A stretch of 64,000 nt of DNA, from NCBI GenBank assembly GCA_028819005.1, contig JAPPMP010000009.1, positions 7,347-71,346 of the forward strand. Reading direction: 5' to 3'. Below, one piece after another: positions 10,697-63,384 of this stretch. Each line of letters opens with the position of its first letter. Within the stretch, counting starts at the first letter, position 1. A program made the translations under genes and the position numbers. Under the pieces are notes generated by a model, which made no database searches, was not told the origin of the DNA, and saw only the letters and a list, made by a program, of their open reading frames with translations. Source of the stretch: Acidimicrobiaceae bacterium (GTDB lineage Bacteria; Actinomycetota; Acidimicrobiia; Acidimicrobiales; Aldehydirespiratoraceae).

Positions 10697-12010
10697 ATGA
10701 TCCCCACGTTCGCCGATCTCGGCGTATCCGATTCAATTGTCGCGGTCTTGGAACGGCGTGGCATCACGTCCCCGTCTGAGATCCAAACCGCCACGATCCC
10801 AGACCTGCTGAGGGGCCGTGACGTTGTCGGACGCGCCCCCACCGGCTCGGGCAAGACTCTTGCCTTCGGGATTCCGCTGCTGACACGGGTCCGGCGAGCC
10901 GAACCGAAGCTCCCGACCGCGTTGATCCTCGCGCCGACGCGGGAGCTGGCAGAACAGATCGCGGCCGAACTCCGACCCTTGGCCGACGCCGTGGCACGCC
11001 GCATCGCAGCGGTGTATGGAGGAGTCGGCCTTGAGCCCCAGATCAAGAAGCTGCGACGGGGCGTTGACGTGCTCGTGGCCACACCCGGCCGTCTTGAGGA
11101 CCTCATTGAACGCCGTGACGTCCGTCTCGGCAGGGTCGCCACCGTCGTGGTCGACGAGGCCGATCGCATGGCCGACATGGGTTTCATGCCCGCGGTGCGC
11201 CGCATTCTCGACAAAACGGCCGAGCATCGTCACACGATGCTGTTCTCGGCGACGCTTGAAGGTGACGTCGGCAAGCTCATCAAGCAGTACCAGACCGATC
11301 CGGTACGCCATGCGGTGGGATCCCCGACACCGGACATGAGGGCTGCAAAACACTATTTTTGGGAGATCCCCAGGCCCGAGCGAATCAGCCTGTGCGCTTC
11401 GGTGATAGCCACTTTCGGCTCCACAATCGTGTTCACACGAACTCGCCACGGTGCTGATCGAGCGGCCCGACAACTCAATCGGGTGGGAATCCCCGCGGCC
11501 GCCATCCACGGCAACCGCTCACAAGCGCAGCGTTCCAGAGCGCTTCGTGAGTTCGCCTCGGGGAAGGCCCTTGCGTTGGTCGCAACCGATGTGGCGGCCC
11601 GCGGCATTCACGTCGACGGCGTCGAGTGCGTCGTTCACTACGACCCGGTCGATGAGGACTCCGCCTATATTCACCGTTCGGGAAGAACCGCGCGCGCCGG
11701 AGCTGTCGGCCAGGTGGTGTCGTTCGTGGACCCCTCCCAGATCAGGCTGGTCAATGCCATGAAACGGAGGCTTGAGCTGTCACAGGAAATCTCCGCGCCT
11801 CCTCCCCTCGACGGCCCGGCTGTGACTGTCCCCTCAAAGGCTGCCCCATCAAGGAACGGGCGCTCCAAGCCCCAGCCCGAACAGCTGGACAAACCGAACC
11901 CGAACAAGAAACGGCACAAGCCCGAACACCGCGGCCGAAAACACGTGTCCAATGGCGCCGCGCGACAACACAAGAGCGCCGCAGGTCACGGTCGGCGACG
12001 CTCTCGTTGA
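10697..12010 (+). CDS. DEAD/DEAH-box RNA helicase
   Basis: A 437-residue DEAD-box helicase. The Q motif region is FADLGVSDSIVAVLERRGIT, motif I APTGSGKT, Ia PTRELAEQI, Ib ATPGRLEDLI, motif II DEAD in VVVDEADRMADMGF, and motif III FSAT. Helicase domain 2 has IVFTRTRHGADR, VATDVAARGIHVDGV and HRSGRTARAG (motif VI). The C-terminal 90 residues are basic and disordered (NKKRHKPEHRGRKHV), typical of RNA-binding tails. It unwinds RNA in ribosome assembly or mRNA decay. The ORF is open to 10280, but ATG 10697 has GGAG upstream and starts just before the Q motif, while 10646 is a possible alternative. The last codons lie inside a 36-bp direct repeat. Confidence 0.93.
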   Translation: MIPTFADLGVSDSIVAVLERRGITSPSEIQTATIPDLLRGRDVVGRAPTGSGKTLAFGIPLLTRVRRAEPKLPTALILAPTRELAEQIAAELRPLADAVARRIAAVYGGVGLEPQIKKLRRGVDVLVATPGRLEDLIERRDVRLGRVATVVVDEADRMADMGFMPAVRRILDKTAEHRHTMLFSATLEGDVGKLIKQYQTDPVRHAVGSPTPDMRAAKHYFWEIPRPERISLCASVIATFGSTIVFTRTRHGADRAARQLNRVGIPAAAIHGNRSQAQRSRALREFASGKALALVATDVAARGIHVDGVECVVHYDPVDEDSAYIHRSGRTARAGAVGQVVSFVDPSQIRLVNAMKRRLELSQEISAPPPLDGPAVTVPSKAAPSRNGRSKPQPEQLDKPNPNKKRHKPEHRGRKHVSNGAARQHKSAAGHGRRRSR

Positions 12011-12095
12011 CAGGTCGCGCGCCCCCGCAGCCGCCGCGGACGCGCGAGGGTCAGGGACGACGGTCGGCGACGCTCTCGTTGACAGGTCGCGCGCC
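11988..12095. repeat. 36-bp direct repeat flanking a 36-bp segment at the helicase 3' end
   Basis: ACGGTCGGCGACGCTCTCGT continuing TGACAGGTCGCGCGCC occurs at 11988-12023 and again, identically, at 12060-12095. Copy 1 contains the last helicase codons and stop. The 36 bases between (12024-12059) and the bases after copy 2 are not similar, so this is not a simple 72-bp tandem duplication. See the finding on CRISPR-like geometry. Confidence 0.9.
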
Positions 12096-25680: not shown

Positions 25681-25791
25681 TCGTTCATCGGGGGGTCGCC
25701 GGGGGTCAGCGACAACCGCATCGCGATGCACGCGACACGGCAACGCCCCGCGTCGTTCATCGGGTGGTCGCCGGGGGTCAGCGACGACCGC
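25681..25791. repeat. 39-bp direct repeat flanking 33 bp at the pnp 3' end
   Basis: TCGTTCATCGGGTGGTCGCC plus 19 further bases at 25753-25791 cover the last pnp codons, stop and downstream bases. The same 39 bp recur with two mismatches at 25681-25719. The 33 bases between are unrelated to the flanks. The period is 72 bp, the same as at the helicase 3' end. Confidence 0.88.
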
Positions 25792-28865: not shown

Positions 28866-29350
28866 TCAGATGGGGGGTTTGAGGCGGTATTTGCGGGTTC
28901 TGGGGTCTCGGTCGACCTGCCACCGGTGGTCGTGGATCTTGTGAGACCCGCCGACGCCGGCGAGTTCCAAAATCAACTCGGCGAGAGCGTCGGCCAGCCG
29001 CTGGGCGGGCGTGGGCCGCGCCTTGGAGTCTTCGTTGTGCCATATCTGCCGTTGCCTGGCGGTCAACGCCGTGGCGATGCACGCTCCGGTGATCTGGTCG
29101 AACTCGCGCTCCCGACCGATCAGACGGGCGGGCGCAAGGGGGCTGTGGCGATGCGCGCTCCGGTGATCTGGTCGAACTCGCCCGACAGCACGAACATGCC
29201 GGACTCGGGAGACTCGAAGATCCGCGCTCTGCGATTCTTGCGTTGACGATCCAGCAGCGACTGTCCGTCGTCACCTGCGACGTCTTGTTGATGGCGTCTC
29301 ACGGTTCGGGCGAAGTCGTCGAACTGCTGCTCGTTGGGCTGCGCCTGCAA
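28866..29350 (-). pseudogene. Broken DUF222/HNH endonuclease (13E12 family)
   Basis: Two minus-strand pieces (29350-29120 and 29066-28866) belong to one gene. The first carries RARIFESPESGMFVLSGEFD, the core of DUF222. The second resumes TARQRQIWHNEDSKARPTPAQ in another frame and ends HDHRWQVDRDPRTRKYR, like the last strand of HNH endonucleases. Removing the 74-bp unit at 29108-29181 joins ITGACIATALTARQRQIW in frame. The N-terminal part and the HNH core are also missing, so the gene has further deletions. Confidence 0.75.
29071..29181. repeat. 37-bp direct repeat flanking 37 bp, interrupting the DUF222/HNH gene
   Basis: GTGGCGATGCACGCTCCGGT followed by GATCTGGTCGAACTCGC occurs at 29071-29107 and at 29145-29181, differing at one base. 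The 37 bases between are unrelated to the gene. Both copies encode the same protein segment (FDQITGA[C/R]IAT), so the insert duplicated its target. The 74-bp gain shifts the reading frame. Confidence 0.92.
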
Positions 29351-29383
29351 GCAATCCCTCGTCGATATTTCAATACTCTTGAA

Positions 29384-30182: not shown

Positions 30183-33100
30183 CCTTCAATGGAGGCCCGA
30201 ACCTAGGTTCGGGCGAACGACAGAGCCGCCGACCTCATCGACCGGCTCCCGACCCCTTCAATGGAGGCCCGAACCTAGGTTCGGGCGAACCTCGCAGCGG
30301 TCATCTGGCCGCCACGCCGAGCGCGAGGCGAATGGCTCCGCCAGGACGCCCTTCAATGGAGGCCCGAACCTAGGTTCGGGCGAACGCATGGGTCCCGTAG
30401 GCGTGGACGTCAGCATTAGGCCTTCAATGGAGGCCCGAACCTAGGTTCGGGCGAACCTACTCGCTGAGCGACGTCACGTGCAACCGCACGCACCTTCAAT
30501 GGAGGCCCGAACCTAGGTTCGGGCGAACAACGCGTGCGGCCCCCGCTCGATGTCGGGGGATGTCCCTTCAATGGAGGCCCGAACCTAGGTTCGGGCGAAC
30601 ACTCTATAAGTAGGCTAGCCCACCCCGCAGCTTCCGCCTTCAATGGAGGCCCGAACCTAGGTTCGGGCGAACAGGCTCTGACATGGAAACCAGCCAGGAG
30701 GACATCGGCCTTCAATGGAGGCCCGAACCTAGGTTCGGGCGAACCTCAAGGGCAGGCCGGACAATCGCAGGATCATCGCCGTCCTTCAATGGAGGCCCGA
30801 ACCTAGGTTCGGGCGAACGACACAGAGAAAGGGCATATTATGTCCAAGAAGCCAAACCTTCAATGGAGGCCCGAACCTAGGTTCGGGCGAACGACCTTCG
30901 TCGAGGTCACGGCGTGGGGAACCCTCGCGCACCTTCAATGGAGGCCCGAACCTAGGTTCGGGCGAACTCGTCGATGGTGAAGTTGACGTTGCCGTCGGCC
31001 ACCCGCCTTCAATGGAGGCCCGAACCTAGGTTCGGGCGAACCTCGGTCGGCACCGGGAGGCCGAAATACTGGAGCTTCCTTCAATGGAGGCCCGAACCTA
31101 GGTTCGGGCGAACGCACCCCACCCCGAGCACCATCGGGCATGACGCCACGCCTTCAATGGAGGCCCGAACCTAGGTTCGGGCGAACGTGAATACGACGCT
31201 GGCACCGCCGTCGCCGTCGTCGTCCTTCAATGGAGGCCCGAACCTAGGTTCGGGCGAACCTTTTTTTCAATAGAAACACGAAAACAGAGTGGCGGACCTT
31301 CAATGGAGGCCCGAACCTAGGTTCGGGCGAACGCCTGACGACGACGACGCCGTCTCCGACTATCTCACCCTTCAATGGAGGCCCGAACCTAGGTTCGGGC
31401 GAACCTGGTTGAGGTCGACGATCAGCGCCGCCGCCTCCAGCCTTCAATGGAGGCCCGAACCTAGGTTCGGGCGAACAAGTGAACAACTACAGGAAACGCC
31501 TGCGGATGAGGGCCCTTCAATGGAGGCCCGAACCTAGGTTCGGGCGAACGCCAGAGCCTGCCGTCGGCGGAGCGGGTCGAGTAGGTCCTTCAATGGAGGC
31601 CCGAACCTAGGTTCGGGCGAACCGGCGATCCCGGCGACGGCGGAGTCCTCGTCGAGGCCCCTTCAATGGAGGCCCGAACCTAGGTTCGGGCGAACCATCC
31701 TCCATCACGCCCGCGGGTATTGAGGTATAACCGCCTTCAATGGAGGCCCGAACCTAGGTTCGGGCGAACCCGGCTCCCCTGCCCGCAGCGCCAGACGGCG
31801 GAACTCCCTTCAATGGAGGCCCGAACCTAGGTTCGGGCGAACCCCTACCCTCGTTCGTGAGCCGCAGCATGCCGAGCACCTTCAATGGAGGCCCGAACCT
31901 AGGTTCGGGCGAACGAGCATCATCACTGCGTCCCCGATGTCCAGGGCGTACCTTCAATGGAGGCCCGAACCTAGGTTCGGGCGAACACGAAGGCTGGCGT
32001 CCCGACCGCCGAGGCGATGACGCCTTCAATGGAGGCCCGAACCTAGGTTCGGGCGAACTCTCGTCGACGTCGATCTGCGACCCGTCAGCCGCGGCCCTTC
32101 AATGGAGGCCCGAACCTAGGTTCGGGCGAACCCGCTACGACGACGGGCGGGAACCGTCGCCGTGGAGCCTTCAATGGAGGCCCGAACCTAGGTTCGGGCG
32201 AACCTGGCCACCGGCGACAGCATACCACGGGTTAGTAACCTTCAATGGAGGCCCGAACCTAGGTTCGGGCGAACACCGCGACGGTGTGGGGCGTGACCGG
32301 CACGTTGTGCCTTCAATGGAGGCCCGAACCTAGGTTCGGGCGAACGGTGCTCCCCGCGGCGATGGTCCACATCATCACCAACCCTTCAATGGAGGCCCGA
32401 ACCTAGGTTCGGGCGAACCGGTAGGTGTCCGGGCCGACCAGCAGCGCCAAATCGCCTTCAATGGAGGCCCGAACCTAGGTTCGGGCGAACCTGCCGCGCC
32501 GGCATGTACATGGGGAAAGCAGAGATCCTTCAATGGAGGCCCGAACCTAGGTTCGGGCGAACGATGTCGCGGTCGCTCAAGCAGGCCGAGGGCGGTCTCC
32601 TTCAATGGAGGCCCGAACCTAGGTTCGGGCGAACTTGGCCGTGCCGTGTCTGGTCGGAGGATGCACACACCCTTCAATGGAGGCCCGAACCTAGGTTCGG
32701 GCGAACGCCCCCGTCGTGGATCTGGTGGCCGATGCGGAAGAGCGCCTTCAATGGAGGCCCGAACCTAGGTTCGGGCGAACCCCAGTCGCCCAGCTCGGGA
32801 TAGTGCGGCAGCAGTTGCCTTCAATGGAGGCCCGAACCTAGGTTCGGGCGAACGGGGTGGGTGTGGTGGTCATGCCCCCTACTGTACACGTCCTTCAATG
32901 GAGGCCCGAACCTAGGTTCGGGCGAACCAGCGCGACGTTCTGGAAATGCTGATTCCGCTGCTCAACCTTCAATGGAGGCCCGAACCTAGGTTCGGGCGAA
33001 CGGTGCGACCCCGAGCGCATCCCAGCAGTGACCGACGCCTTCAATGGAGGCCCGAACCTAGGTTCGGGCGAACCTCCGTATCGGAACGTCTCGCGGCGTG

Positions 33101-33217
33101 AGCGGACGTCCTTCAATGGAGGCCCGAACCTAGGTTCGGGCGAACCACCGAGTTGATGCGGGCTGTGAGCCTGGTGCCCCACCTTCAATGGAGGCCCGAA
33201 CCTAGGTTCGGGCGAAC
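30183..33217 (-). CRISPR. CRISPR array, 42 repeats and 41 spacers (type I-G)
   Basis: Forty-two 36-bp repeats, identical as far as I can read. On the plus strand each begins CCTTCAATGGAG and ends CGGGCGAAC, around the perfect 20-bp palindrome GCCCGAACCTAGGTTCGGGC. The palindrome folds in RNA as an 8-bp stem with a CUAG loop. Spacers are 35-39 nt (19 of them 36) except one of 59 nt (30291-30349). On the minus strand the repeat starts GTTCGCCC and ends ATTGAAGG, resembling common 5'-handle sequences. That orientation and the adjacent cas2 put the leader at the right (33218 onward), transcription leftward, and the newest spacer at 33146-33181. No repeat is degenerate at either end. Confidence 0.99.
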
Positions 33218-33386: not shown

Positions 33387-33686
33387 TCAGATGACCGTAG
33401 GCCCAGACGTCGGCAACGCCGACCTCAACCCCATGAATTCAAAACAGTCGCGACCGCGGTTTGCGGGAGGGCCGAGATCGACGAAGGCCACGGAGTCCTT
33501 CCCGTGATGGATAATCGAACTCAATTCTTGTTTCAACATCACCATCTCAACAGCGTCCAGGTCACAGATGAAAACACTGTACTGCATGGGCCAGCCGTAG
33601 TTCTTCACGCTCTTGTGCACCAGCCTCAATCGCTTGGCATCACTGATGTCGTAACTCACAAGAAAGCGGTTTCTACCCGATGCCAC
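33387..33686 (-). CDS. cas2: CRISPR-associated endonuclease Cas2
   Basis: A 99-residue Cas2. RNRFLVSYDISDAKRLRLVH is the ferredoxin-like beta-1 with the conserved Asp, YGWPMQYSVFICDL the second strand, and the Leu-rich helix MVMLKQELSSII the core. It bridges two Cas1 dimers in spacer integration. The GTG start at 33686 lies 4 bases after the cas4-cas1 stop. It is the last gene of the operon, just before the leader. Confidence 0.95.
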   Translation of the reverse strand: MASGRNRFLVSYDISDAKRLRLVHKSVKNYGWPMQYSVFICDLDAVEMVMLKQELSSIIHHGKDSVAFVDLGPPANRGRDCFEFMGLRSALPTSGPTVI

Positions 33687-33690
33687 AGCG

Positions 33691-35328
33691 CTACCTCGTC
33701 ATGAAGGGCGTGTATTCGGGGATCTCACCGAGCAGGTGCGCTGCAAGAACACGAGCCTGCACCTCAAGCACGCGCCGGTAAGTGATCTTGTAACCGTAGG
33801 TGGGATGCGTTACCTGAGTGTCGAGCCGTCGTTCATAAGCGGATAGCACAGATCGCCGGCCCTTCTGCGTGAGCGAGACTCCACCGGCACGAAACTCGAA
33901 GTCCTTTGCGCTGACCTCGCCGTTGTTGATCGCGTTGATCACGACGGACTCCGCAACCAAGGGTCGGAACTCCTCAGCCAGGTCCAACGAGAGAGCAGGG
34001 CGACCGAAGCGAGGGCGGTGAAACACGCCCAAGTACGGGTCGAGGCCGACAGCGATTGCCGTTGCGGTCAAGTCCTTGGTCAACAGCGCATACACATACG
34101 ACAGCAGACAGTTGACGGGATCTCTTGGCGGTCTTCGGTTGCGTCCGTTGAAGTCGAAGGCCCCGAGACTCTCATCACGGATCATCGACGCGAACTGTGA
34201 GAAGTACAGCCGCGCTCCCGTGCCTTCCATGCCCAGCAAACTCTCGATCGACTCGCTCCGATGGATACCCTCTGCGAGCGATTTGAGTTGTTCCACCTCG
34301 CGCTGGACGTCGGTGCGTGCGTTTCTCCTCAAGAATGTCCGCGAGTTGCGCAACTTTCCTTCGATCATCGCCTGAGCGATCGGCAGACCAGCTTGTGCAG
34401 CTATCGCGACTTGGCGCCGACGAAGGTCGACGTGCTTGGAGGGAAGCCCCTCTGCGATTCCTTGGAACCATCCACCATAGGAGAACCAGCAGACAGGGAT
34501 TTCCTCTCGAAACGCCGCCCGCATCATCTGGCTGCTGACCTGAACGTTGCCGTATATGGCTATCTGCGACACGTCGATGAGGCGAAGTTGCTGGATTTCG
34601 TCACGGCCCTTGCTGACCACGACCCGCCCGGAACGGATACCGATCCTGGCGCCTTGCTCGGTCACATAGAGAGGTCTCGCTGCTGAGTCGCGCGGCGTGA
34701 GGCGGCGGGGAGCGGTTGTGCTGCGTTTCGTGTGGAGGTTTGTCTCGTCTGGCAGACAAATGCCGACCAGCGAGCATCTTGGGCACTTCGGACTATCGAT
34801 GAGTGGCGGCGGTGCCTCAGGTTGAGCCGCGACTTCGCGCAGTTTCGCGACCAGAGTCAACGTGTGGTCGATCAACGGTTGATCAAACGGAACGGTCGTG
34901 CGCTTGCGAGTCTCGGCAAAATAGAACTGGCCTTCGGTGCATTCGTAGCCGTTGTCTTGCAGCAGCAAACCGATCGTGCATATCTGCACCTGTTCGGGCA
35001 TCCAGGCCGGACCGTGTTTGGGTGGCCGCCCGCGTTTCACCTCCACGGGCACGACACTGCCGTTGCGCTGCTCAATGACGTCGGCCTTGGCGATCAGGCC
35101 GAGCCGGTGGGAACTCAACTCGACAGACTTGGCTTTCTTGAACGGTGGATCCTCAACTGTGCCCATACGACCACCACCAGCGTCAACCACCCGGTGGACG
35201 TAGAGACCCTCGACGGTGTCCCGATTGTGCTCGAAACGCGACTGCACCCACTCCAGATAAAACAGCCTCGGGCAATACTCGAACTCATTGATCATCCGAG
35301 CCGGCACAAGATCAGGAACTTCACTCAC
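33691..35328 (-). CDS. cas1: Cas4-Cas1 fusion protein
   Basis: A 545-residue fusion. Residues about 1-205 are Cas4: MINEFEYCPRLFYLEWVQ gives the first cluster Cys, VVPVEVKRGRPP the nuclease DEK core, and CPRCSLVGIC the last three Cys of the Fe-S cluster. Residues about 215-545 are Cas1: LYVTEQGARIGIRSGRVVV opens the beta domain, and GMEGTGARLYF (Glu), YLGVFHRPRFGRPALSLDLAEEFRP (His, Asp) supply the metal ligands. Cas4 trims prespacers and selects the PAM side, and Cas1 integrates them. The fusion is typical of type I-G. The GTG start overlaps the previous gene by 8 bp (GTGAGTGA). Confidence 0.97.
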   Translation of the reverse strand: MSEVPDLVPARMINEFEYCPRLFYLEWVQSRFEHNRDTVEGLYVHRVVDAGGGRMGTVEDPPFKKAKSVELSSHRLGLIAKADVIEQRNGSVVPVEVKRGRPPKHGPAWMPEQVQICTIGLLLQDNGYECTEGQFYFAETRKRTTVPFDQPLIDHTLTLVAKLREVAAQPEAPPPLIDSPKCPRCSLVGICLPDETNLHTKRSTTAPRRLTPRDSAARPLYVTEQGARIGIRSGRVVVSKGRDEIQQLRLIDVSQIAIYGNVQVSSQMMRAAFREEIPVCWFSYGGWFQGIAEGLPSKHVDLRRRQVAIAAQAGLPIAQAMIEGKLRNSRTFLRRNARTDVQREVEQLKSLAEGIHRSESIESLLGMEGTGARLYFSQFASMIRDESLGAFDFNGRNRRPPRDPVNCLLSYVYALLTKDLTATAIAVGLDPYLGVFHRPRFGRPALSLDLAEEFRPLVAESVVINAINNGEVSAKDFEFRAGGVSLTQKGRRSVLSAYERRLDTQVTHPTYGYKITYRRVLEVQARVLAAHLLGEIPEYTPFMTR

Positions 35329-36232
35329 GCTGCCAAATTACGCGAGGCGGACCGAACGTTCCGTATCCACCTTGATCACTTCGCCGAATCTGTGACTGGA
35401 GGACGCGATTTATTCCCCACGCCCTGTACCACTTCAGACGATGGTGTTCACCCTCATTTCCTTCTGGAGCGACATGGCCCAGCAAGGACCCCACCGTCCT
35501 GGAGGAGGCAGGCACTCCCCAGAGAGGCCAAGTGAACGCTCCGCTCTTCCAAGACCCCGAGCAGCCCTGCGTGCGGGTGCGGTTCTTGGATTTGAAACTA
35601 GGGAATCTGACCAAACCCAATACAGCGAGGGCTTCAGCGCCTGGATTCGTGGGTTTCTTGGACTTCGAGGGATCCGAGGCGCTAAGGGCATGGTCTCGGT
35701 CGTCGACCGTGTCCCACATCAGCGAATCACGAGCGCCTTCATAGCTCCACTGCGATCCAAGGTCCGCAACGATCTCGTCCTCGGTTACTTCGCCGAGACT
35801 GGTACGAGCAATCGAGAGGAACTTCTGCTGTCCCGCCGTGAAATAGAAGTCCGACGGCTTCGCGATCTGGCTCCGGTCCAAGCTGTCTTCGGCCAGAAGG
35901 CATGCTGCAAGCAGTCCCGACGCTCCCGCATCGCGCCCCTGTTCCAAATACTTCCGAATTTCCGGAGACTTCAGTTTCAATTTGGGGTCGATCGACTCGT
36001 CTAGAGCGGGCCCGTCAAGCCAGCGCGCTGCGACAAAGAGAACCGCTTCAGCGATCTCGTCAAGGTCGACCGCTGGTTCGAGGACGGGCTGTGGGATCGG
36101 TTGATCGGTCCAGAACAGCGCGCACTTTTGACCTCGCCAATCCAAAGCTACCTGTACACCCAGCGCCGCTAGGAATCCAAGCGGATTGGTTCCAGGTAGA
36201 CCTGACAACAAGGTTCCACCCGATTCAGTCAT
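35321..36232 (-). CDS. Probable type I-G Cas8/Csb3-like effector subunit
   Basis: A 303-residue protein in the operon slot between cas3 and cas4-cas1. The opening LLSGLPGTNPLGFLAALGV resembles the start of Csx17/Csb3-type large-subunit proteins (a Leu-Gly-rich strand-turn-helix). The rest is divergent: WYRAWGINRVLQSQIRRSDQ near the C-terminus, and no nuclease motif. By position and this motif it should be the effector's Cas8-like subunit, but it is much shorter than Csx17. ATG 36232 has AGAGGAGA upstream and overlaps the cas3 stop by 8 bp (ATGACTGA). The family name is less certain than for its neighbours. Confidence 0.75.
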   Translation of the reverse strand: MTESGGTLLSGLPGTNPLGFLAALGVQVALDWRGQKCALFWTDQPIPQPVLEPAVDLDEIAEAVLFVAARWLDGPALDESIDPKLKLKSPEIRKYLEQGRDAGASGLLAACLLAEDSLDRSQIAKPSDFYFTAGQQKFLSIARTSLGEVTEDEIVADLGSQWSYEGARDSLMWDTVDDRDHALSASDPSKSKKPTNPGAEALAVLGLVRFPSFKSKNRTRTQGCSGSWKSGAFTWPLWGVPASSRTVGSLLGHVAPEGNEGEHHRLKWYRAWGINRVLQSQIRRSDQGGYGTFGPPRVIWQRE

Positions 36233-39203
36233 TGGCTGTCTCCTCTGCACTCCGTTGTTGATCCGCTAACCGAAGAATCGCTTCCAGCCAGGCGAGTCCG
36301 TGATGTCCGTACTTCGCCTGCAAGCGCCAGAATCGGTCTGCCATCTCCAACGCGAGGGGCGTCTCGGCAAGGTCTGAACGCGTGCTCAGTTCGAATGTCC
36401 CGTCGGCTTCCCGCTGTTCTCGCAGTCCATTGTCGGGAGTGACGCGGAATCTTCCGTCGACGAACTCGCCTGAGATCGCCAGGGTTTGCGACTCCGGATC
36501 CTCCTTGATCGCCGGGAGCGGTCGGCTGTAACCATGATGCGAACCCACGAGGTGCAGAACCAAGTCTGGATCATGCGCCTGAACGAGCAACTCCGGCACG
36601 CTCTGCACGAGGGCGACGCTGCTGAACTCATGGCGTACCGGCGGCCACTCGTGTCGTCGCGTCCGGGCACCTCGCAGCGACTTTGCCAACGGCTCGTCCA
36701 TCGACGCGAGCCTCACGGAGTCGTGGCCGTGCATCTGCGCTTGGAACCTCGGGTCGACTTTGCCGAGATCGTGCAACTGGGCCGCCAATCGCAGGTCGCC
36801 GACCATCTCGTTCGGAAGGCCCAGGTTCTGAGCAAACTCCTCCACCTTGGCTCCCACCCCGACCAAGTGTTCTCGCAGCGTGGTCTTAGTTCCAGTCAGA
36901 GACGGCTTGTCATCGAAACCGTCCAGGGCCGCGGGATCGACCGAGTCCTGAACCAGCACGTAGTAGTTCGCGGCCCCCTCCCCGTTGACGATTTCGATCT
37001 CCGGGGCGGCGCCAACGAACTTCTCGACGACCTCGGACATCCAGACCGGAATCCCCGAGGACGGCGAAGACTCGCTCACTTCCACCAACCAGTCCTGAAT
37101 CACCTTATCGGGGGACCTTTCGGCATCGCGTTCCTGTGCGGGCTTAGGCGGCGACGGGCAAGCGAACCCCTCGAACAAGCGCTCGTCGAGGCGGAGTGTC
37201 GCACGTCTCCCATACGCGACCTGCGCCTCGTCGCCGAGGTCAAACGCTGCTCCGGGTTCGTTCGTCACCTCACCTGGATCGACCCGTTGCGCCGGGCGAT
37301 AGCCCGGATCCCAGGCGCCATTCCGAATCCCGCCGAGACGCGGCTCCACGATGAGCACGTCTCCGGGTTCGACCTGTTCGGCCCGCAACAACCGTTCGAC
37401 CCCAGGGTCGCGCCGCGTCCACCGGACCACACCAGTCAACTCCCGCTCCTGCGTCCTTGATCGACCCGAGTTCTCAGTGGGGTTCTCAATGGCAACGTCG
37501 CTCACCACCGATTCCTCAGCGCCGCGAAGCCAATCCTTGGCCGCAGAGATCGGTACCGCCAGAAACTCGGCGGGCCGCGGCGGTACCAGAGAGATTGCCT
37601 GTTCCGAGTGGTCGTGGCGCCAGACGACAGATACTTCAGGCTCGACTTGGCGCTCCTTGCCGTGCAGAAACTCCGCTATCGAAGGATCGATGACTGGTCT
37701 GGGACTCGTCTGCGACCAAGCGTCGATGTGTGTCGGAAGCAGCAGGGGCGCCTCGGACTTGTCGGCCTGCGCCTCGCCACCGATACGGGCGAGCAGTCCG
37801 GCCGCCGGACCGACATCGATCTCGCTGCCTTCTGCGGCTTGCTGCAGGCCATCCCAAGCGATCCTCGCTCTGTCGCCGTAGACCGGGTCCGGCTTCTTCG
37901 GATTGAGCGCCGAAGCAACGCCTAGGATCCAACACCGAGCTGCAACTTCGTGGCTCGATTCCTCAGACTCAGCTCCGCCCGTCGGGTTGCCTTTCCGCCT
38001 CTGAGCGGCAAGGCTGCCGCGACGGTCGAGCCGACCGAGGCGCTGCTGCAGACTGTCGATCGGCGCCGCCTCGGTGATGAGGACGTCGAAGCTGAAATCG
38101 GCGCCCACCTCGATCGCTTGGGTCGCAACCACCACAGTCGGTTCCGCGATCGCCTTGCCACGCTCGGGATCAACGCAATCGCTGATCTCCTGCATCACGG
38201 CCACCTTGTCGAGCGGGCGCATTCGGCCAATCACCAGATGGGCGGCGATTCCTTTGTCCCGAAGGGCCGCGTGAACCTCGCGAGCGGTGCGCACGCGGTT
38301 CACGATCACTCCGACACTCCGCTCGTCCGGTCGAAGGTTCCTGCAGCCTGCGCCGAGCAGACTCAGGACCTTCGACGGCACGGTCTCGTCCGCGGGCCGG
38401 GTTCCAGGCACTTCCACGAGCGTGGCTCGCTTGGGAGCCTCAGCGATCTGCTTCAACCTGCCTGAGGACTCAAGGTCATCAGGCTCAAGCCGGAACCGCT
38501 CCTCCGAATCAGTGGTCGGCGTGGCCGACATCTCCACGACCTCGAATCGGCGGGGAAGCCCTCCGCCGATTGAACGGATTCCGGGGATCTCGCCATCGGA
38601 GGAAACGTCGCTCAGGGTGCATGCGAACGCATGGCTCAGATGGACCTCGTCGAGGATGACCAAGCAGTCGTTGCCAGCCAGGCCCGCATGTACCGGCCCC
38701 ATCCGCTCGCTCACACCATAACCCCTGAACAGCAGGCGCGATCCAAACTGATCGACCGTCGAGACCAACACCCAAGGCTGCTCGGGCCGACTGACCCAGT
38801 CACCGTCGATGGGGATTCCACCCCTTAGAGCCGCGACACCCAGCACCTCATCCGCCTGGGACAGGGCGCGGAGACGCTCTCGCGCCATGGCGAGCACCCC
38901 GCCGTTCGCGTCGCGGACCGCGTCGCGGATCTTCCGAGCGCGCTCCACCACTTGGTCCACGACTATGCGTCGGTCGATGACGAAGACGACTCGCCGCGGG
39001 AACAGATCAGGACGGGCCGCCAACGTGAACACGGCGGTGTCGAGGACCGACGTCTTCCCCGTGCCCGTGGGAAGGTCGATCACTCTCGGCCACCGGCCCT
39101 CCGCGAGCACTCGCCGCGTCAAGCGACTCTGCCAGGGGTAGGGCGGATGATCGTGGACGGCCTCGAAGTAGGCGTCAAACTCGGAGACCAGCAGGTCATC
39201 CAT
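36225..39203 (-). CDS. cas3: Type I-G Cas3 helicase-nuclease with C-terminal HD domain
   Basis: A 992-residue Cas3. The N-terminal helicase has YPWQSRLTRRVL, Walker A DLPTGTGKTSVLD, VVFVIDRRIVVDQV, box II LVILDEVHLSHAF, VEMSATP (motif III), VIVNRVRTAREVH, VATQAIEVGADF and QRLGRLDRRGS (motif VI). The HD nuclease is at the C-terminus (from about residue 790): AAQLHDLGKVDPRFQAQMHG, RHEFSSVALV, LVGSHHGYSRPLP and LRLADQQRS. This order (helicase then HD) is the reverse of most type I systems and is characteristic of I-U/I-G. It degrades target DNA after Cascade binding. It overlaps csb2 by 8 bp (ATGGATGA). Confidence 0.96.
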   Translation of the reverse strand: MDDLLVSEFDAYFEAVHDHPPYPWQSRLTRRVLAEGRWPRVIDLPTGTGKTSVLDTAVFTLAARPDLFPRRVVFVIDRRIVVDQVVERARKIRDAVRDANGGVLAMARERLRALSQADEVLGVAALRGGIPIDGDWVSRPEQPWVLVSTVDQFGSRLLFRGYGVSERMGPVHAGLAGNDCLVILDEVHLSHAFACTLSDVSSDGEIPGIRSIGGGLPRRFEVVEMSATPTTDSEERFRLEPDDLESSGRLKQIAEAPKRATLVEVPGTRPADETVPSKVLSLLGAGCRNLRPDERSVGVIVNRVRTAREVHAALRDKGIAAHLVIGRMRPLDKVAVMQEISDCVDPERGKAIAEPTVVVATQAIEVGADFSFDVLITEAAPIDSLQQRLGRLDRRGSLAAQRRKGNPTGGAESEESSHEVAARCWILGVASALNPKKPDPVYGDRARIAWDGLQQAAEGSEIDVGPAAGLLARIGGEAQADKSEAPLLLPTHIDAWSQTSPRPVIDPSIAEFLHGKERQVEPEVSVVWRHDHSEQAISLVPPRPAEFLAVPISAAKDWLRGAEESVVSDVAIENPTENSGRSRTQERELTGVVRWTRRDPGVERLLRAEQVEPGDVLIVEPRLGGIRNGAWDPGYRPAQRVDPGEVTNEPGAAFDLGDEAQVAYGRRATLRLDERLFEGFACPSPPKPAQERDAERSPDKVIQDWLVEVSESSPSSGIPVWMSEVVEKFVGAAPEIEIVNGEGAANYYVLVQDSVDPAALDGFDDKPSLTGTKTTLREHLVGVGAKVEEFAQNLGLPNEMVGDLRLAAQLHDLGKVDPRFQAQMHGHDSVRLASMDEPLAKSLRGARTRRHEWPPVRHEFSSVALVQSVPELLVQAHDPDLVLHLVGSHHGYSRPLPAIKEDPESQTLAISGEFVDGRFRVTPDNGLREQREADGTFELSTRSDLAETPLALEMADRFWRLQAKYGHHGLAWLEAILRLADQQRSAEETAND

Positions 39204-40914
39204 CGCCCCTACCCTCCCCGTCGCTCGCCTCGCGTTGAGAGCGGTCGTCCATCGGCCGCATCAGGCCGAGTCCGAGGAAGCGACCGCTTCCGAGCACCAG
39301 CGGGCCGCTCACATCCTCGGGGAACTCGACTGACACATGAACCAACCTTCGCTGGATACCGCCACCCTTGCGGCCCTGCTTGAACGCCGGGAAGTCACGC
39401 GCCGGACGCGTGCCTACAAGGTCCGAAACGAACGACACTCTCACATCGACGGGACGCGGAAGACCGATGTGCGCACAGGACTTGGCGACGGACTCCTCGG
39501 CACGTGCCCATGCCTTCGCCCGCGCCGCTGGCGTTCCGCTGACAAGGTTTCCGGGGTGAGTGGGCAAGGCAACCGGAGTCGCGGACGCCCACCATCGAGA
39601 CCTCCGTTCCCAGACCCGAGGGTTCAAGGATGTCAAGCTGAAAGGCGGTTGCCTCCTTTGCATCCAGGCGTCCCCGTTGGGACCCATAGTGAGCTGCAGC
39701 CGCCTGTCTTCGCGCCGATCTTCCCAAGTACCGATTCCGCGCAGTGTCGCGCGGCGCGCAGCCTCGTCAAGGTTGTGCGGGAGAGAAACAGCGAGACCCA
39801 TGATCCGGCCGTCAGCGCGTTCGTGACCGACATTGGGCAGCGCTAGGAACGAGAGGTGCGGCACCTCCGTCGGCCTGCCGTCTGCGACATGCCCGCTCAC
39901 GCCCTCCGGAATCGGGTCTTCAACAAGGCTGAGCACTGCCTCGCGCAGAACCCTCGCAAGCTCAACGGCCCTTGTAACAGGCATTCGCCTGTGGCTCGGG
40001 TCTAATTCGAAGACGATCCAGTCGCCGGCGGTCGTCGGAATCAGCACCTTGTCCGGGACACCTTCGGTCGCGTCCACCTCACGGTAAGGGACAGCTTGGA
40101 ACGGGAGGCTGCGCGGCTTGATCGCCTTGTGCTGAGCGTGTTCAGCCTCGAGCGCGGCGAGCTGCCCTGATTTCACCCAGCGCAGCATCTGGGTTCCCGC
40201 GCCAGGAGTGTGGGTGGCTGGAGGCGCCTCATCGATCAACCGGCACGAGATCAGGGACGACGAGTGGCCCAGTCGCGTGACCCGGCTCAACAGGCTGTCA
40301 AGCGCTTTGGTCACATCAGGGGTTGGACTGTCATCCCACGCATACGTCACCGAACTGACGGGGGGTAAAACCACAGTCGACTCCGCACCTTCCGAGGGGA
40401 GCAGGGTAACCGAAGGGAAATGACGCTCCTTTTTGCCGCGGTGCTCGGGAAGCAGGGCAACAGCAGTGGCGACGTTGGTAGTCCCAGCGCGCCCCACCAT
40501 CGACTCCACATCCAGTTTCTTGTCGATCTTGTTCTGCAAGCGGCGAGCCTTGGCGGTCAGCTCGCCGCCTGACGACTCGACCTCGTCTTCGAACTGCCCC
40601 AGCAAGTCCGCGACGTCCTCGACACGTTTGTCGTACGAAGCACCGGCAATGACCCTGGTGTCGTTGACTGGAACGAAGTGGCTCACCGCCCTTCTCGCAA
40701 CAGCCCCTGGCGCGTTGATCCGAGGGGGCGGCTGGGTCTCCAACCATTCGAGTGCGGTCCGTTCGGTCTCGTCGGGCGGATCCGCGTCCGCCCAGGCTGC
40801 GACTATCGCCGAGAACAACCGCGCAGCATGGGGCGGCCACTCGTGTGCCGACCGGTCGTGGTGCGCTGTCGCCGTGTAGCGGCCCGTGAGAAAGCTGACC
40901 TCAATGGCGATCAT
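39196..40914 (-). CDS. csb2: Csb2, type I-G Cas5-Cas6 fusion protein
   Basis: A 572-residue member of the GSU0054/Csb2 family. The start MIAIEVSFLTGRYTATAHHD and SAHEWPPHAARLFSAIVAAW are typical, with RINAPGAVARRAVSHFVPVND after them. The C-terminal part has MRPMDDRSQRE and VSFVSDLVGTRPARDFPAFK, a Cas6-like region with a Gly-rich loop (GRKGGGIQRR). It should process pre-crRNA at the repeat hairpin and cap the crRNA 5' handle in the effector. ATG 40914 shares one base with the csb1 stop (TGATG). Confidence 0.93.
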   Translation of the reverse strand: MIAIEVSFLTGRYTATAHHDRSAHEWPPHAARLFSAIVAAWADADPPDETERTALEWLETQPPPRINAPGAVARRAVSHFVPVNDTRVIAGASYDKRVEDVADLLGQFEDEVESSGGELTAKARRLQNKIDKKLDVESMVGRAGTTNVATAVALLPEHRGKKERHFPSVTLLPSEGAESTVVLPPVSSVTYAWDDSPTPDVTKALDSLLSRVTRLGHSSSLISCRLIDEAPPATHTPGAGTQMLRWVKSGQLAALEAEHAQHKAIKPRSLPFQAVPYREVDATEGVPDKVLIPTTAGDWIVFELDPSHRRMPVTRAVELARVLREAVLSLVEDPIPEGVSGHVADGRPTEVPHLSFLALPNVGHERADGRIMGLAVSLPHNLDEAARRATLRGIGTWEDRREDRRLQLTMGPNGDAWMQRRQPPFSLTSLNPRVWERRSRWWASATPVALPTHPGNLVSGTPAARAKAWARAEESVAKSCAHIGLPRPVDVRVSFVSDLVGTRPARDFPAFKQGRKGGGIQRRLVHVSVEFPEDVSGPLVLGSGRFLGLGLMRPMDDRSQREASDGEGRGDG

Positions 40915-60455: not shown

Positions 60456-60549
60456 CGCGAACCTGTTTCTTGCGGATTCCCACGGGCCGAAAGTGACCGG
60501 CCCGAGCAACAAAGGCTATCGACGCCCCACGGCGACGCCACCGTGGTTG

Positions 60550-60818
60550 CATCGATATCACGCGTCGAAGGCCAACTCGTCGAGGGCCGACCGGACCGCC
60601 GCGGTCACGCTGCGGGGCGTGCCGGTCGCATCGATATCACGCGTCGAAGGCCAACTCGCCGCTCCTGGACCGCCGCGGTCACGCTGCGGGGCGTGCCGGT
60701 CGCATCGATATCACGCGTCGAAGGCCAACTCGCCGAGGGCGCCCGACCGCAACCACGGCTGCGGAGGATCGCTGGCATCGATATCACGCGTCGAAGGTCA
60801 ACTCGTCGAGGGCCGACC
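60550..60818. repeat. Four-copy tract of the DUF177 gene 3' end
   Basis: A 30-bp sequence beginning CATCGATATCACGCGTCGAA occurs at 60550, 60629, 60703 and 60776 (periods 79, 74, 73 bp). The copy at 60776 contains the DUF177 stop codon and last codons. Between copies 1-2 and 2-3 another 36-bp block (GGACCGCCGCGGTCACGCTG and 16 more) is also shared. The tract separates DUF177 from rpmF. Confidence 0.9.
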
Positions 60819-61362
60819 AGCGGGGGTCCACCGGCAAGTCCCCGCCGAGTGGCGGGCCGGTCGGGAATCTGTCCGGCGCCGGACCCTCGCATTCGACGCC
60901 GCAGAGCGGGGCGAGCGGCAAACAGACCAGGGCGACCTCACGCAGCATGGGTCCCAGGTCAAGGCCGTCGCCTTGCAGTGCTTCTCGCAGCGCCCACGTC
61001 TCTCCCTCGGTCGGATCCACCTCGAACAGCTCCTGAATCTCAACTACGAGATCCCCCTCCATGGGTTCCAAACAGCGACGACAGGGCACGGACCAGATTC
61101 CACGGGCCGTACCGCTGACCAGCACACTGTCGGCGCCGGCTCGTCGGGAAACGTCCTCGAGGGCGTCGGCCGTGTCGGGGTAGGAGCCGGTGCGCTCCAA
61201 CACGAGATCCAGCGACAGGCGACCGTCGACCACCGTTGAACGCATTCCAGAATCGGACAACTCCAAGTCGGCGAGCTTCGCCTCTGTTCTAAGGGGCAAC
61301 CGATCCTCGGCCTGGCCGAAGAGCCCAGTTGTGTCCACCACGAATTGAGCGCTCTGGGTCAC
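60784..61362 (-). CDS. DUF177/YceD family protein
   Basis: A 192-residue member of the YceD/DUF177 family encoded before rpmF, as in most bacteria. SVPCRRCLEPMEGDLVVEI carries the conserved CxxC, with QELFEVDP and CLPLAPLCGVECEGP after. The family is linked to 23S rRNA accumulation and ribosome assembly. GTG 61362 has AGGA 6 bases upstream and overlaps the preceding stop by 4 bp (GTGA). Its 3' end is part of a four-copy repeat tract. Confidence 0.9.
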   Translation of the reverse strand: MTQSAQFVVDTTGLFGQAEDRLPLRTEAKLADLELSDSGMRSTVVDGRLSLDLVLERTGSYPDTADALEDVSRRAGADSVLVSGTARGIWSVPCRRCLEPMEGDLVVEIQELFEVDPTEGETWALREALQGDGLDLGPMLREVALVCLPLAPLCGVECEGPAPDRFPTGPPLGGDLPVDPRWSALDELTFDA

Positions 61363-61934
61363 TCGCGATCCTGGTCGAAGAACTCGTCTCCGCGCTGGGA
61401 GGGAAGTTCGGGGCTCGACTCCTGGGATTGCGCAGCGCCCTGCATCCGCGACCTGCCGAACGCGACCGAGCGGGAAATACGGTCGAGCACCACTTCGAGG
61501 CGTCCGAGTTCCTGATCGCACCAGTCCTCGGTCTTCAAGCGAAGGTCCCTGGCTTCCTGTTCCGCCTCCGAGACGACTCGTCGAGCGTGGTCGTTCGCCT
61601 CTTTCGCCAGTTCAGTGCGCTGAACCATGCGCTGGGCGGTATCGCGGGCCCGCGCGATCAGCAGATCTCCCTCTCCTTGGACACGCGCCAGGAAATCATC
61701 GCGTTCTTTGAGGAGCCAGCGAGCCGCTCGAAACTCCTCCGGGAGGCTCTGCACCGCCGCATTCAACAATTCCAGAACCTCGTTCTTGTTGATTATCGAC
61801 GAGGCGGACATCGGCATCGGGCGAGCCCTCTCGATCAGATCAATAGCCGCCCTGAGGATGTCTTCGGACTCCAAGGGCCGGTACGCCGAAGGCGGCGCTT
61901 CAGAGAGAGCGTCTCCGGTGTTCTGATCGGTCAT
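61359..61934 (-). CDS. Coiled-coil protein, DivIVA/SepIVA-like
   Basis: A 191-residue mostly helical protein. NKNEVLELLNAAVQSLPEEF leads into a charged coiled coil from about residue 65 to 155 (ARARDTAQRMVQRTELAKEA, VVSEAEQEARDLRLKTEDW). Position next to DUF177, rnc and smc matches the mycobacterial Rv2927c/SepIVA gene, a septation factor. It overlaps both neighbours by 4 bp. The assignment is by synteny and coiled-coil pattern, not by catalytic motifs. Confidence 0.75.
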   Translation of the reverse strand: MTDQNTGDALSEAPPSAYRPLESEDILRAAIDLIERARPMPMSASSIINKNEVLELLNAAVQSLPEEFRAARWLLKERDDFLARVQGEGDLLIARARDTAQRMVQRTELAKEANDHARRVVSEAEQEARDLRLKTEDWCDQELGRLEVVLDRISRSVAFGRSRMQGAAQSQESSPELPSQRGDEFFDQDRE

Positions 61935-63208: not shown

Positions 63209-63384
63209 TGTTCGCTGCGCTCGCCGGGCCGCTGGCGCTGGGCCGGGAGAAGAGGCACCGGGTCAAGGAGGTGTTGCTCACCCTGCGCTCGCCGGGCCGC
63301 TGGACAAGATGTTCTCCACATCCTCGCCGACGTATCCCTCACCCTGCGCTCGCCGGGCCGCTGGCGCTGGGCCGGGAGAGCCGC
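63209..63384. repeat. Three-copy interspersed repeat before recG
   Basis: CTGCGCTCGCCGGGCCGCTGG occurs at 63215, 63283 and 63344 (periods 68 and 61 bp). Copies 1 and 3 extend identically to 36 bp through CGCTGGGCCGGGAGA. Copies 2 and 3 share the upstream TCACC. The unit is related to the one at 10447. No gene is present. Confidence 0.85.

Follow-up and report, generated by a model that had tools for sequence, protein, structure and literature searches.

The DUF222-HNH gene remnant and its insertion

The window, by which we mean the whole stretch of 64,000 nucleotides that was analysed, contains a decayed gene for a DUF222-HNH protein that is interrupted by a short insertion. The features at this site are as follows.

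28866..29380 (ends approximate), minus strand: DUF222-HNH gene remnant, delimited by alignment to the intact orthologues L044 and L045
29071..29107, unstranded: target copy A, carrying a single later mutation (sequence comparison and congener alignment)
29108..29144, unstranded: insert of 37 bp, absent in the congeners G001 and G003
29145..29181, unstranded: target copy B, keeping the ancestral base

The two copies, 37 bp each, differ only at position 11 (A/G), where comparison with the orthologues in G001 and G003 identifies the base of copy B as ancestral and that of copy A as a later change; the 37-bp insert is unrelated in sequence to the copies that flank it. Both the sequence comparison and the congener alignment thereby bear out the sequence-only reading, which had described two 37-bp copies with one mismatch around a foreign segment of 37 bp. 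Its further statement that deletion of 74 bp restores the DUF222 frame was also found to be correct, as the frame joins to read ...MFVLSGEFDQITGACIATALTARQRQIWHNEDSKARPT... once these nucleotides are taken out. The duplication of 37 bp is the maximal one: had 36 bp been duplicated around an insert of 38 bp, a single base matching by chance would give the identical 37/37 arrangement.

An intact DUF222-HNH gene is found at the same place, with the adjoining gene pair rpsO-pnp, in both G003 (C35, L044) and G001 (C4, L045). These syntenic orthologues contain one copy and no insert, which leaves a clean 74-bp gap in the alignment. The empty site, for which a search of close relatives had been suggested, is thus present in two congeners, and the event in the window can be regarded as a precise insertion. 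With regard to the gene itself, the comparison with the orthologues revealed that the N-terminal part is lost (junction near 29380), that a +1 frameshift lies near the remaining start and that the HNH region has lost about 360 bp. The earlier proposal that the insert disrupts the gene therefore holds for the 74-bp insertion, but not in the sense of the insert being the sole damage, since three further lesions are present. These other lesions imply that the insertion hit, or preceded, the general decay of an expendable gene.

The neighbouring type I-G CRISPR-Cas locus

Next to the insertion lies a CRISPR-Cas locus with the following features.

30183..33217, minus strand: native CRISPR array of type I-G with 42 exact copies of a 36-bp repeat; most spacers measure 35-39 bp
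33387..33686, minus strand: cas2 (TIGR01573)
33691..35328, minus strand: cas4-cas1 fusion, Cas4g/Cas1g (NF049935, E 1e-228)
35321..36250, minus strand: type I-G Cas3-extension protein (NF049934)
36225..39203, minus strand: cas3g (TIGR02621)
39196..40914, minus strand: csb2, Cas5/Cas6-type protein of type I-G (TIGR02165)

The Cas4/1 fusion, Cas3g and Csb2 identify the locus as type I-G, and the Cas4g/Cas1g protein encoded at 33691..35328 is the sole Cas1 in the assembly. The orientation of the array was deduced from ATTGAAGG as the end of the repeat and from the side on which cas2 lies. With the array starting 1.0 kb from the insertion, cas2 at 4.2 kb and cas4-cas1 at 4.5 kb, the complete Cas1-Cas2 system that had been noted about 4 kb away is indeed there. 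By name, the close relatives of the Cas4/1 protein belong to Acidimicrobiaceae and Acidimicrobiia MAGs, a kind of MAG obtained from marine sponges. One interval of the native array (window 30291-30349) measures 59 bp instead of the usual 35-39 bp, and in G001, a close relative, the array (L253 12110) shows only two repeats and one spacer, compared with 42 repeats in the window.

In view of this locus, the dimensions of the insertion are informative. Its duplication of 37 bp (36 being possible) compares with a native repeat of 36 bp and is thus of repeat length, and the 37-bp insert falls inside the native spacer range of 35-39 bp, that is, it is of spacer length. The fact that the maximal duplication is 37 and not 36 bp counts against an integration by Cas1-Cas2.

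The same applies to the search for a source of the insert. No other copy with at most 3 mismatches was found in the own genome or in five congeners, the comparison with phage and plasmid collections gave weak matches only (best E 0.4), and viral contigs yielded nothing convincing. The suggested search against phage, plasmid and own-genome sequences thus revealed no convincing source, a further point against Cas1-Cas2. Two local origins were also considered and dropped: for an origin in a DUF222 paralogue the best score lay at or below that of shuffled inserts, and for an origin in the deleted N-terminal part of the DUF222-HNH gene there was a 12-bp match only, which is not convincing.

Further insertions and candidates in the window

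Four additional places in the window have a related structure.

11988..12095, unstranded: second insertion, 36 bp inserted between two target copies of 36 bp; G001 and G003 have the empty site
25681..25785, unstranded: third candidate, 39 bp inserted between two 33-bp copies that differ at one base, at the pnp 3' end
60549..60813, unstranded: candidate mini-array built from four copies of a 3' gene end (gene at 60784-61521)
63215..63364, unstranded: candidate, three copies of CTGCGCTCGCCGGGCCGCTGG, spacings 68 and 61

The insert at 11988..12095 is unique in the genome. The candidate at 25681..25785 is absent in G001, the G001 alignment being poor at this place. Judged from its sequence, the region 60549-60813 looks like a young mini-array, with four copies of about 36 bp at CRISPR-like spacings (79, 74 and 73); its spacers 1 and 2 have 35 bp in common, and spacer 3 is different.

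Genome-wide population and size classes

The window and further stretches, together 1.54 Mb or about half of the genome, were scanned for inserts flanked by direct repeats with a minimum length of 20 bp. Once tandem repeats had been removed, solitary pairs were counted if their copies measured 24 bp or more and their inserts 20-60 bp; L083 13182 and L069 1940 were left out as tandem-repeat artefacts. This yielded 51 solitary pairs, 40 of which lie inside three size boxes.

Class a (about 28/33): 14 pairs, duplication 24-31, insert 30-37, spacing 58-61 (9/14 exactly 61)
Class b (about 36/30): 6 pairs, duplication 35-38, insert 28-30, spacing 64-66 (4/6 exactly 66)
Class c (about 36/36): 20 pairs, duplication 33-41, insert 33-39, spacing 71-76 (9/20 exactly 72)

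The modes of the three classes are 61, 66 and 72 for the spacing and 28 and 36-37 for the duplication. Targets and inserts are different at every locus, and 13 of the 1,344 bp compared between target copies are mismatched. Of the length plane examined, 16% lies inside the boxes, which gives a binomial p of about 1e-22 for boxes that were drawn post hoc, with the data already seen. All events come from one assembly, and the boxes were compared against three control genomes (0.8 Mb: 400 kb of G005, a genus-mate with type I-G, and 400 kb of the family-mates G007 and G012, which have no Cas1). These controls contained three pairs, of which a single one falls in a box, corresponding to 1.25 per Mb compared with 26 per Mb in the query genome. 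That G005 has the same type I-G system and almost no events speaks against an integration by Cas1-Cas2. Relatives, too, have single events of type I-G size close to their type I-G loci (L253 14930, L258 12602 and L264 250), the first of them, in G001, beside the same DUF222 gene. Apart from the three boxes, four pairs (L118 1663, L244 2680, L108 15208 and L080 3350) combine duplications of 25-27 bp with inserts of 37-39 bp at spacings of 63-64 and possibly form a fourth size class.

With queries built by joining many sites into one, 28 further sites were compared with G001 and G003. At 15 of them (six of class c, six of class a, two of class b and one of size 27/37) the flanks meet and overlap exactly by one copy, the insert being absent. 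This exact overlap identifies the 15 sites as precise insertions and brings the number of sites with an empty counterpart in a congener, the one described above included, to 16.

Relation of the size classes to CRISPR types

A duplication and insert of 28/33 corresponds to the geometry of type I-E and 36/30 to that of type II, and the window's own type I-G array shows a geometry of 36/35-39. Within the genus, each of these three geometries has a matching system: G002 encodes Cas9, a type II Cas1 and Cas2, type II being known there from cas genes alone, and G004 has type I-E genes together with an array of period 61 and the repeat GTGCTCCCCGCACCTGCGGGGGTAAGCC. In the query assembly itself, a Cas1-Cas2 matching the insertion size is present for the I-G-sized class only, those for the I-E- and II-sized classes being found in congeners. 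No Cas1 of type I-E or II was found in the query assembly, yet 20 of the 40 events carry those geometries, which is another point against Cas1-Cas2. These two classes were presumably made by systems that were later lost or are absent from the assembly.

As for the target sequences, class-a targets share on average 13.1 matches with the type I-E repeat of G004, compared with 10.9 +/- 0.5 for random genome segments; the repeat itself is absent from the query genome. Class-c targets have no overall likeness to the type I-G repeat, again an observation against Cas1-Cas2, and their junction sequence is less random than that of controls. The hairpin content of the targets showed no excess over random. 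A dispersed palindrome-like repeat (CGCTTCGCTC...GGGCCGCTCGGGCC) was noticed at L071 7833; similar stretches are numerous in G001 and G003, the repeat is common in the genus, and it harbours at least one I-E-sized insertion.

Inserts copied from the chromosome and mini-arrays

Six inserts match, over their full or nearly full length, chromosomal DNA from elsewhere in the genome, and the match runs past the insert by no more than a few bases that agree by chance.

L109 15275: source C19, 35/35
L110 5677: source C35, 35/35
L124 19193: source C30, 38/39
L108 19148: source C14, 33/36
L237 11217: source C12, 29/30
L242 19650: source C25, 30/30

An apparent self source of L070 7663 in L043 turned out to be one and the same place and was dropped. 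No common PAM is evident in the four I-G-sized self-derived inserts, which likewise counts against Cas1-Cas2, and a search of viral contigs for exact 24-mers of four inserts other than the one at 29108-29144 yielded no match. Self DNA that sits outside an array would be free of an autoimmunity cost, and this may explain the persistence of such events.

Four sites contain three or four copies, with differing spacers and a separate repeat at each place.

L066 14818: three copies, spacings 61, 61
L084 10562: spacings 61, 61
L230 15313: four copies, spacings 61, 61, 59
L246 12359: spacings 64, 61

From their sequence organisation, these multi-copy sites look like candidate CRISPR arrays born from ordinary sequence.

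Origin of the insertions

Taken together, we consider it highly probable that off-target spacer integration by Cas1-Cas2 explains both the insert in the window and the insertions found across the genome. This is in line with the sequence-only reading, which had taken the insert for a prespacer integrated by Cas1-Cas2 at a non-CRISPR site and which gained support from the empty site, from the failure of the refutations it had named and from the 40 solitary events. The argument is based on the sizes of these events, which are those of CRISPR integrases, on the 15 additional empty sites, on the identifiable sources of inserts and on the mini-arrays. Also in its favour are the native array with an intact cas4-cas1 and cas2 close by, the near absence of events in the controls, the type I-E and type II systems of congeners, the likeness of class-a targets to the I-E repeat of G004 and the I-G-sized events at the type I-G loci of relatives. 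The enzyme at work on the window site was probably the type I-G Cas4/1-Cas2 complex. It would have taken up a short piece of double-stranded DNA and joined it to the chromosome at a site outside CRISPR by two strand transfers staggered by about one repeat length; gap filling would then have duplicated the target, leaving target, 37-bp insert and target in the expendable DUF222-HNH gene. Some sites would subsequently have gained more spacers and become mini-arrays. In type I-G, Cas1 joins the two 3' ends of the prespacer to the two ends of the repeat in two transesterifications, and in vitro the correct site is used in only 60-70% of the spacer-side events (PMC10504553). Gap filling then leaves the repeat in two copies, and the same reaction at a non-repeat site would produce exactly the observed order of target, insert and target.

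End joining without any integrase, in which staggered double-strand breaks are filled in and joined with a captured filler fragment, is known to yield filler insertions with flanking duplications and would also account for the six inserts copied from chromosomal DNA. We nevertheless regard this explanation as improbable. It is already disfavoured by the three discrete size classes, whose spacing modes of 61, 66 and 72 fit CRISPR geometries; moreover, two classes have an equal duplication of 36 but inserts of 30 and 36, respectively, the control genomes are nearly devoid of events, and a single site can be used repeatedly. Assembly artefacts might be suspected in a fragmented, metagenome-derived genome, given that the named relatives are MAGs, that the genome is in 52 contigs and that the evidence comes from the assembly alone. 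Such artefacts are very unlikely to have generated dozens of sites that are independent of each other and sort into three meaningful size classes, with single mutations between copies and inserts of identifiable source, and similar events occur in other assemblies. Replication slippage, in which the two copies would go back to one old 74-bp unit as its halves and the insert would be host sequence in diverged or original form, is hardly credible even in a genome where other kinds of tandem repeats are common, since the empty sites refute it for the window site and 15 others, the relatives having a single copy and neither the insert nor an ancestral tandem 74-bp perfect unit, and since the insert matches its surroundings no better than shuffled sequences do.

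If the insertions do stem from Cas1-Cas2, a genome with tens of such events, many of them backed by empty sites, provides a natural data set for the target choice, duplication length, insert length and source of an integrase in a process hitherto thought rare in nature, and would also inform on the mutational cost of CRISPR adaptation and on the birth of new arrays. The size classes may in addition serve as fossils of CRISPR systems that a lineage has lost, and the finding of chromosomal copies among the off-array inserts suggests that self DNA is taken up and persists where autoimmunity cannot arise. Beyond this, we lean towards the broader view that in this lineage several CRISPR integrases (I-G, I-E and II) are general mutagens that place short fragments in the chromosome, leaving perhaps some 80 scars per genome, copying self and other DNA, disrupting genes and repeatedly seeding arrays.

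Comparison with known systems

Casposons measure kilobases, carry terminal repeats and duplicate about 14-15 bp of their target. Their integration resembles the events described here in relying on a Cas1-type integrase and in duplicating the target. In contrast, the inserts reported here measure 30-39 bp, differ at each site and are flanked by duplications of about 28 or 36 bp; a transposon or casposon was rejected as their origin, as there is no recurring common element. Ectopic spacer acquisition, likewise an integration of spacers at an unusual position, takes place at repeats within a CRISPR array (e.g. PMC7999890; reviewed in PMC8047081), whereas the targets in the present genome are unrelated chromosomal sequences. 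Non-canonical (off-target) spacer integration by Cas1-Cas2 has been described by Nivala, Shipman and Church (2018; doi 10.1038/s41564-017-0097-z), as cited in passages of PMC9456107 and PMC11788318. It has in common with our observations an insert of spacer length, a duplication of repeat length and a chromosomal site outside arrays. In that work, E. coli Cas1-Cas2 was reportedly overexpressed, and few natural candidates are said to have been named. In contrast to this precedent, the present case concerns a genome from nature, half of which already yields at least 40 events, and it includes three geometries, self-derived inserts and mini-arrays. The insertions are thus best explained as a known kind of event, off-target integration as seen in E. 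coli and in a few suspected natural cases, here occurring at an unusual density.
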